DNA of 64,000 bases, from contig NZ_WLYK01000002.1 of the NCBI RefSeq assembly GCF_009707545.1, positions 62,001 through 126,000 on the forward strand. Direction: 5' to 3'. Below are positions 2,758-40,943 of this stretch, piece by piece. Made by a program: the position numbers and the translations under genes. How positions within the stretch are numbered: position 1 is the first letter of the stretch; every line of letters begins with the position of its first letter. The DNA is from Nakamurella alba (GTDB taxonomy: Bacteria; Actinomycetota; Actinomycetes; Mycobacteriales; Nakamurellaceae). The notes beneath the pieces are model-generated. The model made no database searches and had not been told where the DNA came from. It saw nothing but the letters and a program-made list of their open reading frames with translations.

Positions 2758-2886
2758 GGATTCAGAGCGATCCGGCGACCCGCACCGTTCGGCCGCGACT
2801 GACACGCAGGAGTGGGTCCTCGATGCCGACAGGCGTTCCCGCTGGATCGTTCGACCGGACCACCCGCTCGGCCCGACCACGAATCG

Positions 2887-2923
2887 GGGACCGAAACCCT
2901 TGCACAGCAACGGAAAAGGTCCC
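2887..2923. repeat. 37-bp palindromic element, copy 2
   Basis: GGGACC at 2887-2892 and GGTCCC at 2918-2923 flank 25 bases (CCCTTGCACAGCAACGG and more), nearly the same as copy 1. Both copies are preceded by a similar ACGA(A)TCG. A stem-loop read on either strand is possible, so a bidirectional terminator is one explanation. Confidence 0.8.
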
Positions 2924-3001
2924 GGATCCGGGGAGACGAGTGCCCGGGGACCGGCAGGCTGATCGGCGAACCTGGCACCCGCCCCGGCGAGAACCCTTGC
3001 G

Positions 3002-18154: not shown

Positions 18155-18769
18155 ATGACCGCACTGGCACCCGACGGACGACCGCTCGTGGGACGGTTCG
18201 TGCGCCTGGACCGCGCGGTGCTCTCCGACGCCGGGCCGCTCTTCCGGGCCCTGGACGACGAGCGGGTCTACGCCGGCAACTACGCGGGCGGACCCGCCGG
18301 CCGGCCGCGCTCGGTCGACGCGATGGCCGCGAGCCTGGGCGCCGCGCTCTCCACGCCCGGCCGCACGCCGTACACGGTGCGCCTGGTGCAGGACTCGGCC
18401 GCCGGCTCGGCCGGCGACGTCGTCGGCACCAGCAGCCTGTTCGACCTGTTCCTGGTGGACGAGCGACTGCACCTCGGCTGGACCGCGTACGCGCCGGCCG
18501 CCTGGGGTTCGCAGGTCAACCCGGAGTGCAAGCTGCTGCTGCTGGGCCACGCCTTCGACGACTGCGGGTTCGGCCGGGTCAAGATCCAGACCGACGCCGT
18601 GAACACCCGCTCGCAGGAGGCGATCGAGCGCCTGGGCGCCGTCCGCGAGGGCGTCCTGCGCCGCCACAAGAAGCGCGCCGACGGCACTTTCCGCGACACG
18701 GTCGTCTACTCGATCCTCAAGGACGAATGGCCGGCCGTGCAGGCGGGCCTGCAGGAGCGCCTGGGCTGA
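18155..18769 (+). CDS. GNAT-family acetyltransferase (RimJ/RimL type)
   Basis: 204 residues from the ATG at 18155, with GGAGG 6 bases upstream. The layout is that of the RimJ/RimL N-acetyltransferase group: LVGRFVRLDRAVLSDAGPLF at the N-terminus, LHLGWTAYAPAAWGSQVNPECK (Q/RxxGxG-like region replaced by WGSQVN) and VKIQTDAVNTRSQEAIERLG, the acetyl-CoA helix. Likely substrates are protein N-termini or small amines, unproven. Its stop codon is followed within 5 bases by the first hairpin of the repeat region. Confidence 0.88.
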   Translation: MTALAPDGRPLVGRFVRLDRAVLSDAGPLFRALDDERVYAGNYAGGPAGRPRSVDAMAASLGAALSTPGRTPYTVRLVQDSAAGSAGDVVGTSSLFDLFLVDERLHLGWTAYAPAAWGSQVNPECKLLLLGHAFDDCGFGRVKIQTDAVNTRSQEAIERLGAVREGVLRRHKKRADGTFRDTVVYSILKDEWPAVQAGLQERLG

Positions 18770-18773
18770 ACAT

Positions 18774-18821
18774 TGCGAGCTGGCGCTCGCGGGTCGCTGC
18801 GAGCTGGCGCTCGCGGGTCGC
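18774..18821. repeat. Two tandem 24-bp hairpin repeats after the GNAT stop
   Basis: TGCGAGCTGGCGCTCGCGGG and four more bases are repeated exactly at 18774-18797 and 18798-18821. Each contains GCGAGC-TGGC-GCTCGC, a 6-bp stem with a 4-base loop. The same hairpin in the opposite orientation recurs through 19072-19410. Confidence 0.85.
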
Positions 18822-18899
18822 CCGTCTTGTAGGGGATCGGCGACCATCTTTCGTGTTGGCCTGGCGACCCACCGTGTCTCGCTGGCTGGCCGTGAATAG

Positions 18900-18936
18900 G
18901 GGACCGTTTACCTCGGTGGCCGATGGTTTCGGTCCC
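18900..18936. repeat. 37-bp palindromic element, copy 3
   Basis: GGGACC (18900-18905) and GGTCCC (18931-18936) again enclose exactly 25 bases. The interior agrees with the reverse complement of copies 1 and 2 at scattered positions (TTT near the start, GTTTC at the end). It lies between the convergent GNAT and priA genes. Confidence 0.75.
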
Positions 18937-18952
18937 AGATGTGGCTTTGTCG

Positions 18953-19415
18953 ACCGGCTGCCATGTCCGGTCGCTCGTCGGGATCGTGCGGTCGAGCATC
19001 GCAGCCGGAGAGAGGCACGAACGAAGGGCGAGAAGCGCAGAACGCGCGATCCCATCACAGACGAGCGACCCGCGAGCGCCAGCTCGCCATGTCCGGAGGC
19101 GAGAAGCGCAGAACGCGGGATCCCTTCCAGGACCGAAGACCCGCGGCCGCCAGGCCGCCATGTCCGGTCTGAGGTCCGGGATCGTGCGGTCGAGCATCGC
19201 AGCCGTCGCGAGGCACGAGCAAAGGCGAGAAGCGCAGAACGCGGGATCCCTCTGAGGACCGAAGACCCGCGGCCGCCAGGCCGCCATGTCCGGTCTGAGG
19301 TCCGGGATCGTGCGGTTGAGCATCGCAGCCGTCGCGAGGCACGAGCAGAGGCGAGAAGCGCAGAACGCGGGATCCCTCTAAGGGCCGAAGACCCGCGAGC
19401 CCCGGCTCGCCGTGT
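18953..19415. repeat. Tandem array with 126-bp period and covarying hairpins
   Basis: The marker GGCGAGAAGCGCAGAACGCG starts at 19027, 19098, 19224 and 19350 (steps of 71, 126, 126; the first unit lacks 55 bases). Every unit holds a 16-base hairpin: GCGAGC-GCCA-GCTCGC (19072), GCGGCC-GCCA-GGCCGC (19143, 19269) and GCGAGC-CCCG-GCTCGC (19395). Two stem pairs change together between copies. The array fills the gap between GNAT and priA. Frames through it stay open because 126 is a multiple of three, but nothing suggests a protein. Confidence 0.85.
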
Positions 19416-21956
19416 TCAGAAGAGGGCGTCGGGGTCGATCTGGACGCGGACGGTGGCGGTGCCCTTGCGGGCGGAGCGCAGGGCGGTCAGTCGGGTGAGG
19501 TCGGCGGCGACGGCTTTGCGGTCGCGCTGGGGTGAGCGGATCAGCGCGCGGACACGACCGGCCGATTCCGGGCCGGGCATCCCGCCGCCGACGGCGGAGG
19601 GCAGGTCCTCGACGGGCACCGGACCGAGCACCTCGGCGGTGTCCGGCAGCCGCAGCTCGGTGAGCGCCTCGGCCACGGCGGCGTCCTCACCCTCCAGCGC
19701 GGCCATCGCCGCCGCGGGCGGGAACCCGAGTTCGCGACGGGCGGCGAGCTCGGCCGCGGCATGACCGGCCGGGTCCCAGCGGATCAGCGCCTGCACGGTC
19801 GGCAACGAACTGTCGGCGCCGACGACCACCCGGCCACCGTCCCGCGCGGGGCGGACCAGTGCGGCGGCGATCATCCACCGGCGCAGCGCCTCCTCGGCGG
19901 CGCGCAGGTCGGGACGGATCAGCAACGTCGAGCCGTCCAGCAGCAGCGCGGCCCCGTACCCGCCGTCAGCGACAGGTTCCGCGCCTGGTGTGGCAACCAC
20001 CAACTGCGGCGAGGCCGGGACGTCGCTGCGGATGGTGTCGCCGGCCGAGGTCAGCGCGGGCACGTTCGGGAAGGCCCGGCCCAGTTCCTCCGCGGTCCGT
20101 CGGGTGCCGACCACCGTCGAGCGCAGCGCGGTGGAACCACAGGCGCCGCAGACGAAGTGGGCCTCGGCGATGCCGCACCAGCGGCAGGCGGGCGGTTGGT
20201 CCGGGCCCCGCAGGGCGAGCGGACCGTGGCAGTGCCGGCAACGCGCCGGGCGACGGCACCGGGCGCAGCCGAGCGACGGCAGGTAGCCGCGGCGGGGTAC
20301 CTGGACCAGGACCGGCGCACCGGACTCCAGCGCGGTGCGGGCCGCCTGGAACGCAGCGGGCGAGATGCGGGCGCGGGCAGCGGCCGAGTCGGCGCCGCGG
20401 GCGAACTCGTCGCCGGCCGCCTCGATCCGCGGCGCCCGGGTCCGGACAGTGGCCCGGTCGGCGACGATCTCCCGCGCCCAGCCACTCTCCACCAGCAGGG
20501 CTGCTTCAGCGGTGCGGGCGAAACCGCCGACCAGCAAAGCACTCCCGGTCTGCGCGGAGCGCAGCATCAGCACCTCGCGCGCGTGCGGGTACGGCGCCCG
20601 CGGCTCGGCGTGGTGGTCGTCGCCGTCGTCGATGATCACCGCCAACCCGAGGTCGGCCACCGGCGCGAAGGCCGCGGCCCGGGTGCCCGCCACGACCTTC
20701 ACCTCGCCGCGGCGGATCTGCACGAAGCGCCGGTAGCGGGTCTCCGGGCCCAGGTCGGCAGTGAGGGTGACATGGGAACGCGCGGGCAGCACCGCGGTCA
20801 GCGCCGCATCCACCCGGGCCAGCTCGCCGACATCGGGCAGCACCAGCACCGTGCCACGACCGGCTGCGAGCGCCGCGGCGGCGGCTTCGGCGAGCCGGGT
20901 CGGCCAGTCCTCCCCCGGCAGCATCTGCCACACGGCCCGCGCCGTCCGGCCGGTGCGCAGCGCCGTCAGGAATGCCGGTCCTGCCGGGTATCGGTCCCAG
21001 CCCGGCGTCTGCTCCCGCTGAATCGGTCCGTCGGGAACCCTGTCCGGTTCGGCAGTGGCGACCGGATCGTCAGCAACTTCGTCCTGGGCGGGGGCGCTGT
21101 GCGTGGTGGACCCTCCGCCGGTGGCAGCGCCCTCGTCGTCCGTGACCGCGGCCTCATCGGCGGCCGCTCCTCCGTCAGGAGTGCTGCCGGTGTCGGAGGT
21201 GCCGCCCTCGTCGCCACCTTCACGCTTGTCCGGTCCGGCGTTCCCGTCGGCACCGGTGCTGTCGTCGGCACCAGTACGGCGGTCCGGACCGGTGCTGTCG
21301 TCGGAACCGATGCTGTCGTCGGGACCAGGGCTCCCGTCGGCACCGGTGCTGCGGTCCGCACCGGTGCTGTCGGCCGCTGCCCGCTCCGAGGCGCCCAGCG
21401 CGCTCTTCTCGCCCCTGGCATGCCGCGGCGGGACAGCGAGCCGGATCACGTCCGCCAGGGTGCCGGCGTAGCGGTCGGCGACGGTGCGGGCCAGCACGGC
21501 GATCTCGGGCGCCAGCGCAGGTTCGGCGGAGACCACCTTCTGCAGCAGGCCGAGCTTGCCGGTGTGCTCGGTGGACTCCTTGCGCGCCAACACGAATCCG
21601 TCGATCAGCCGACCGGCGAAACGGACGCGCACCCGGACCCCGGGCTGCGCCTCGGCCGACAGGTTCTCCGGGACCAGGTAGTCGAACAGCCGGTCCAGGT
21701 GCGGCAGTGAGACGTCGACCGCGACCACGGCGACGGGCAACTCCGTGCTCACCGGGGAGGCGCCGGCGGTGGACGTCGACCTGCGGGGTGATGTGCGGGC
21801 GGCCCGCCGGTCCTGCTCCCGCGCGGGCGGGGCCACAGGTTCGGGAGTCTCGAGTCCCGGCAGCGCGGCTGCGTGCGCCGACACGGAAGGACCCATGACG
21901 TCGTGGATACCAGACAGCGCCGTCAGCCCCGGAATCCTCCTGGTCCGGCTGTGCAC
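19416..21956 (-). CDS. priA: PriA-like primosomal protein N' (ATPase motifs lost)
   Basis: Up to 846 residues; GTG 21956 is the longest start and ATG 21896 is an alternative. The conserved 3'-DNA-binding domain begins only near residue 73 (VAVDVSLPHLDRLFDYLVP). The zinc region is intact (CARC-x5-CRHCHG...CRWC...CGAC). Walker A is absent where GxGKT is expected (LAAGRGTVLVLPDVGEL), and Walker B reads DDGDDHH instead of DEEH, as in other actinobacterial PriA proteins thought not to be helicases. An acidic low-complexity insert (about 190-310) includes eight hexapeptide repeats at 21225-21368. Its stop is followed at 5 bases by hairpin 19395-19410. Confidence 0.9.
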   Translation of the reverse strand: MHSRTRRIPGLTALSGIHDVMGPSVSAHAAALPGLETPEPVAPPAREQDRRAARTSPRRSTSTAGASPVSTELPVAVVAVDVSLPHLDRLFDYLVPENLSAEAQPGVRVRVRFAGRLIDGFVLARKESTEHTGKLGLLQKVVSAEPALAPEIAVLARTVADRYAGTLADVIRLAVPPRHARGEKSALGASERAAADSTGADRSTGADGSPGPDDSIGSDDSTGPDRRTGADDSTGADGNAGPDKREGGDEGGTSDTGSTPDGGAAADEAAVTDDEGAATGGGSTTHSAPAQDEVADDPVATAEPDRVPDGPIQREQTPGWDRYPAGPAFLTALRTGRTARAVWQMLPGEDWPTRLAEAAAAALAAGRGTVLVLPDVGELARVDAALTAVLPARSHVTLTADLGPETRYRRFVQIRRGEVKVVAGTRAAAFAPVADLGLAVIIDDGDDHHAEPRAPYPHAREVLMLRSAQTGSALLVGGFARTAEAALLVESGWAREIVADRATVRTRAPRIEAAGDEFARGADSAAARARISPAAFQAARTALESGAPVLVQVPRRGYLPSLGCARCRRPARCRHCHGPLALRGPDQPPACRWCGIAEAHFVCGACGSTALRSTVVGTRRTAEELGRAFPNVPALTSAGDTIRSDVPASPQLVVATPGAEPVADGGYGAALLLDGSTLLIRPDLRAAEEALRRWMIAAALVRPARDGGRVVVGADSSLPTVQALIRWDPAGHAAAELAARRELGFPPAAAMAALEGEDAAVAEALTELRLPDTAEVLGPVPVEDLPSAVGGGMPGPESAGRVRALIRSPQRDRKAVAADLTRLTALRSARKGTATVRVQIDPDALF
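21225..21368 (-). repeat. Eight in-frame 18-bp repeats within priA
   Basis: The codons read STGADR, STGADG, SPGPDD, SIGSDD, STGPDR, RTGADD, STGADG, NAGPDK: a hexapeptide with consensus S-T-G-A-D-x, eight times in a row. It lies in the linker between the DNA-binding and helicase-like domains and is probably disordered. Copy number could vary between strains by slippage. Confidence 0.9.
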
Positions 21957-40825: not shown

Positions 40826-40847
40826 GGCACCTTCGGGCACCGGATCC

Positions 40848-40884
40848 GGGACCTTTCCCGTCGCCCACCGATGCCTTCGGTCCC
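40848..40884. repeat. 37-bp palindromic element, copy 4
   Basis: GGGACC (40848-40853) and GGTCCC (40879-40884) enclose 25 bases. Here the arms extend outward as GGATCC-GGGACC and GGTCCC-GGATCC, giving a longer stem. It lies 23 bases after the Nudix stop and 60 before the convergent hydroxylase-family stop. Confidence 0.8.
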
Positions 40885-40943
40885 GGATCCGCACCGGGAT
40901 CCGGGCACCGTACCGGGTCACCGGTCCGGTGCCCGGTCGTGGA

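Follow-up and report, generated by a model that had tools for sequence, protein, structure and literature searches.

The window, a stretch of DNA of 64,000 nucleotides, holds two convergent genes whose stop codons enclose an array of hairpin-forming repeats. On the + strand lies the gene for a GNAT acetyltransferase (18188-18769, the start codon being approximate), whose TGA stop at 18767-18769 forms the left edge of the array, and on the - strand lies priA, coding for the replication restart helicase (19416-21752), with its TGA stop at 19416-19418. The first-pass annotation had described six hairpins between these genes, the first behind the GNAT stop and the last behind the priA stop, and all six were located: two on the + strand (18775-18790 and 18799-18814) and four on the - strand (19072-19087, 19143-19158, 19269-19284 and 19395-19410). 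Each has a loop of 4 nt and either GCGAGC/GCTCGC or GCGGCC/GGCCGC as its stem. The spacer from stop codon to nearest hairpin is 5 nt on both sides, ACATT behind GNAT and ACACG behind priA, and the copies of the array are spaced 71, 126 and 126 bp apart.

On the GNAT side, hairpin 1 (GCGAGC TGGC GCTCGC) lies in the first copy of a 24-bp sequence that is exactly duplicated in tandem at 18774-18821, and hairpin 2 belongs to a shortened unit (18799-18845, + strand) in which a basal stem, GGTCGCC/GGCGACC, is kept; a covariance model, built from 24 units of the family described below, finds a weak match over 18767-18845 (34.7 bits; C2:80767-80845). The remaining parts lie on the - strand. They comprise the decayed start of another unit (GGACATGGCAGCCGGTCG, 18951-18968), a full unit at 18969-19095 with the hairpin 19072-19087 and the basal stem GGTCGCTCGTC/GACGAGCGACC (141.7 bits), a truncated 71-bp unit at 19096-19165 that retains the hairpin 19143-19158 and is without its 3' half, a full 126-bp unit at 19166-19291 with the hairpin 19269-19284 (131.1 bits), and a full unit at 19292-19418 with the hairpin 19395-19410 (132.2 bits), the terminal TGA of which doubles as the priA stop codon. 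Another palindromic repeat family, about 45 bp in length and unrelated to the first (GGGGACCGTTTCC...GGTTTCGGTCCC), has one copy in the array, at 18896-18940 (GGGGACCGTTT...GGTTTCGGTCCC, without an assigned strand), and others near window positions 2880-2953 and 40840-40892, as placed from contig coordinates. It gives about 40 matches in the genome, among them those at L026, L027, L029, L030, L031 and L034, and none in 16 congeners; it is tandem in places (L027) and in several cases lies between convergent genes.

The hairpin makes up just the 5' end of a repeat unit that is 113-130 bp long, typically about 127 bp. A unit starts with ACATG or ACATT, followed by the 16-nt hairpin with its 6-bp stem and tetraloop, then by the arm GGTCGCTCGTC, an internal loop of 5-7 nt, GGGATC, a conserved core (CTGCGCTTCTCGC...GCTGCGATGCTCG), GATCCC and the arm GACGAGCGACC. 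The two arms with their inner GGGATC and GATCCC form a long imperfect stem that is both longer and more variable than the stem of the hairpin. A DNA search of the organism's own genome (6.05 Mb in 29 contigs) returned 75 matches, and the covariance model recovered 25 full units at E <= 3e-16 and at least 8 incomplete ones, grouped into about 20 clusters; with 25 full units in the genome, chance is excluded as the origin of the hairpins. Copies include mosaic, decaying and truncated forms. Some copies (L012 2308-2397, L019 2149-2302 and L025 2111-2165) show tandem repetition of their 3' part only (GCTGCGATGCTCGACCGCACGATCCCGACGAGCGACC), and the core motif occurs without the hairpin (CGTTCGTGCCTCTCTCCG...GCTGCGATGCTC) at two further loci (L033 1989-2075 and L036 2025-2095), which possibly represent a distantly related repeat family. 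The first-pass annotation had read the array as an amplified, structured 3'-end element. Amplification, compensating changes and sites behind stop codons bear this out, and further copies appeared in the genome as that reading anticipated; what it overlooked was the unit of about 127 bp with its long-range stem, the dispersal to about 20 loci and the confinement to a single species.

The same annotation had also proposed that the stems covary. The array alone is weak evidence for this, since its six copies contain only two stem alleles, and it is the genome-wide family that supplies the evidence. In an alignment of 24 distinct units fitted to the model, paired cells amount to 97.9%, against 91.6% in shuffles, and in 15 of 34 base pairs both partners have changed, where shuffles give 5.9; the fitting favours the structure, and these counts are to be read with that bias. 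None of 500 shuffles attained any of five pairing measures, so that the predicted excess of stem-compensating changes does exist, and sliding the partner by 1-3 columns lowers pairing to 29-42%. An unfitted MAFFT alignment likewise gives 34 pairs, 13 of them changed on both sides. Variation is greatest in the outer stem, with forms such as GGTCGCTCGATC/GATCGAGCGACC, GGCCGCTGGTCCC/GGGACCAGCGACC and GGCCGTTGTTCCC/GGGAACAACGACC, and on a tree drawn from the non-stem columns the stem states change repeatedly and the hairpin alleles reassort against the core.

Compensatory changes are no proof of RNA function, as template switching between the arms of a palindrome can also yield changes in blocks, and adjacent stem positions do change in blocks here, for example from CTCGTC to TTGTTCCC together with its partner. 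The covariation might on this account reflect template switching and not selection on RNA, with the element working as DNA, its cruciform or single-stranded palindromes serving as binding sites for a nucleoid protein or gyrase, an idea put forward for BIMEs. The reassortment of hairpin alleles agrees with such a DNA-level element, as does the balance of imperfect pairs: on the element strand, A-C mismatches outnumber G-T wobbles by about 13 to 3 in the variable pairs (a count that leaves out one almost invariant T-G pair and one column whose content depends on the alignment). This balance is a hint at folding of the opposite strand, or of DNA, and prevents either strand from being singled out as the folded RNA. 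Folding energies of single copies are modestly below shuffles at one locus (L018, z -2.7) and not clearly so for three units of the window (z 0.3, -0.9 and -1.6), while folding L018 as DNA gives z -3.9. The placement and direction of the copies behind stop codons are not explained by a DNA-level element by itself, and we consider it improbable as the whole account.

This placement is a pronounced property of the family. With gene calls from a home-made codon-bias caller trained on the window and applied to all fetched loci, 18 of 26 hairpins at cluster edges start 3-12 nt past a stop codon on the same strand and three more lie within 23 nt of one, whereas 2.5% of intergenic position-strand combinations in the window lie 3-12 nt past a stop. 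The corresponding binomial value of 2e-23 should be read as no more than "very unlikely", the edges having been listed by hand and the copies being related. Four of the 26 follow no stop, and at L023 a gene seems to extend into the element. Roughly half of the clusters are flanked by convergent genes and the remainder by co-directional genes, and at no locus did this caller place one between divergent genes. The flanking genes are diverse, among them PriA, a PcrA-like helicase, NusB and HelD/HelR-like, RibBA-like, MprF-like and asparagine synthase genes, although the names were given by resemblance and several score under curated cut-offs. MprF-like genes adjoin two of the clusters (L021 9-1982 and L025 2239-4101), which may be coincidence.

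From position and direction the element is very likely transcribed as part of the 3' UTR, and a hairpin starting 3-12 nt past the stop would act on the 3' ends of the RNAs from the two convergent genes. A stable hairpin no more than 15 nt past a stop might instead stall the terminating ribosome, as E. coli REPs at that distance are reported to do (PMC12306157). The distances of 3-12 nt fall inside that reported range, yet the flanking genes share no function, and we regard such translational control as unlikely. More probable than this, though still on balance not our choice, is a selfish or neutral repeat that has no role for the host, propagates itself as DNA and persists chiefly behind stop codons, insertions into genes and promoters being lost and integration favouring post-stop sites. 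The lack of sites between divergent genes and the existence of mosaic, decaying and truncated copies are in keeping with it, and the four exceptions that follow no stop call for no stop-linked role. Purifying selection alone, however, leaves both the start at 3-12 nt and the match in direction unexplained, and pairing has been kept despite sequence change.

The family appears to be restricted to one species, a point in favour of a selfish repeat. The first-pass annotation had suggested searching relatives too for further copies, and there the covariance model found none in 16 congeners. A DNA search of 40 relatives found no similar DNA apart from one match in a congener (G012), rejected as a weak chance match at a gene end, and no copy was detected in 394 other genomes of the class or by exact-pattern scans of bacterial and archaeal genome contigs. 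Viral contigs, scanned for the exact pattern, and plasmids likewise held none, so a phage or plasmid origin was set aside. The hairpin pattern as such occurs elsewhere in 112 stretches; 8 of the 80 examined pair fully, these are coding-like and none has the shared flank.

The convergent priA-GNAT pair is kept in several congeners, with roughly 20-170 bp from stop to stop and no element. PriA and GNAT end in an unchanged place there: the C-terminal GLxERL* of GNAT is kept (by inspection), and PDALF* of PriA aligns with PDELF* of the congeners. As the congeners keep this pair with short gaps and no element, the array was gained in this lineage, at ancestral stops and with both protein ends unchanged; loss in all the others is the less likely alternative. 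Judging by the tandem and inverted copies and the reassorting hairpin alleles, dispersal seems to have been followed by local duplication and gene conversion. One congener (G016) has a tandem hairpin repeat of another kind (about GGCGTAGCGGGGTTGTCCCGCCCGGG) directly past its priA stop (L205 2665-2780). That repeat has 55 matches in the G016 genome and none in the present one, and it starts at or near a stop in five of eight readable loci (L226-L235). In a second congener (G001) a tandem repeat of a CCCGG-type pentanucleotide occupies the priA-GNAT gap, starting directly past the priA stop (L202 2686-2850), and in a third (G015, L211) tandem repeats with GAGTGGACTGTCACGCCTCA begin shortly 3' of it.

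Among known repeats, the closest resemblance is to REP and BIME elements, with which the family shares a short hairpin, a conserved unpaired 5' tag, dispersal, species specificity, an occurrence as single, tandem and inverted copies, and a preference for convergent or co-directional sites less than 20 bp past stop codons (PMC3733652). The broad features of REP-like elements are all found here, namely a tagged palindrome of 20-40 nt, many intergenic copies, proximity to stops and avoidance of divergent gene pairs, and between convergent ORFs REPs are described as lying less than 20 bp from either 3' end (PMC3733652). The differences lie in the tag, conserved here as ACATG/ACATT whereas theirs is GTAG or CGTC, and in the extension of about 100 nt with its own long stem that is fused to the hairpin. 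The GTAG class thus does not fit by its tag, and mobilisation by a RAYT was rejected: no match to the RAYT-type transposase PF01797 exists in the 6.05 Mb genome, whereas five control genomes give one, and the usual RAYT route, with its gene inside this genome, is thereby ruled out. Nor does the CGTC class, with its CGTC tag, a stem of 8-9 bp starting with A-T pairs and a CCA tail (PMC3733652), correspond to a 6-bp G+C stem with another tag and tail.

In length (about 100-130 bp), the long stem formed by a single strand and intergenic location, the unit also recalls the MITE-like ERIC/IRU, RUP and Correia/NEMIS repeats (PMC2229807), unlike which it carries a hairpin outside the inverted repeat, at one end. 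The likeness to the 127-bp enterobacterial ERIC/IRU consensus is one of size and general form only, and repeats of this MITE-like group are co-transcribed with their neighbours in the cases studied (PMC2229807). An inverted repeat, GGTCGCTCGTC/GACGAGCGACC, is present, but its left copy lies inward of the hairpin and not at the outer end, where a MITE would have it. Inspection of the aligned unit flanks revealed no TA or other clear target duplication, and the genome matches inspected included no longer element or source insertion sequence with the same ends. MIRU elements, actinobacterial repeats that are likewise placed at stops and form tandem copies, are mainly known between co-directional, translationally coupled genes. 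Integron attC sites also follow stop codons; by inspection the present units have no GTTRRRY end and sit at dispersed single loci, and this identity was rejected.

That the hairpins are simply canonical intrinsic terminators, or members of a known structured RNA family, is very improbable. They are G+C-rich and lie past stops, as such terminators do, but no U-tract follows them and the array contains no U-tract terminator-like site; a terminator would, moreover, have no need of a conserved extension of about 100 nt, and Rfam returned no match even at E <= 1. Hairpin clusters past stop codons terminate without poly-U in many genomes (PMC8355165), and they share with the present family the location within 80 nt of stops and frequent clustering (PMC8355165), differing in that the hairpin here is part of a dispersed repeat family and termination is putative.

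We propose that the array was built from an interspersed repeat of REP/BIME/MITE type, non-autonomous and particular to this species. A single strand of it would fold into a small hairpin beside a long stem. The repeat has spread to about 20 intergenic sites, mostly immediately past a stop codon and oriented like the gene, with local expansion into tandem and inverted arrays. As a 3' UTR element it may cause pausing or termination without the help of a U-tract and also hold off 3'-5' exonucleases. We are highly confident that the repeat is a real, structured and species-specific new family of REP/MITE-like kind. A function at the RNA 3' end, taken separately, falls somewhat short of even odds; by analogy with REPs and hairpin-cluster terminators, a bidirectional 3'-end structure is the most likely reading. 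For the statement that combines the REP/MITE-like identity with an RNA 3'-end function, we would give a probability of roughly 0.6. A bolder version, which we think unlikely, would have an active mobile element, moved by a non-RAYT enzyme, integrate specifically just past stops, so that by spreading it provides the host genes with new 3' ends; every species of the genus would then have an unrelated post-stop hairpin family of its own in that place.

The repeat adds a previously undescribed family to a class that has mostly been catalogued in Proteobacteria, in an apparent high-G+C actinobacterium that is without a RAYT transposase. The occupation of the same post-stop place by different repeats in different species makes it possible to ask whether these elements are tolerated parasites or recruited 3' ends, a question that concerns hosts in which U-tract terminators are scarce.
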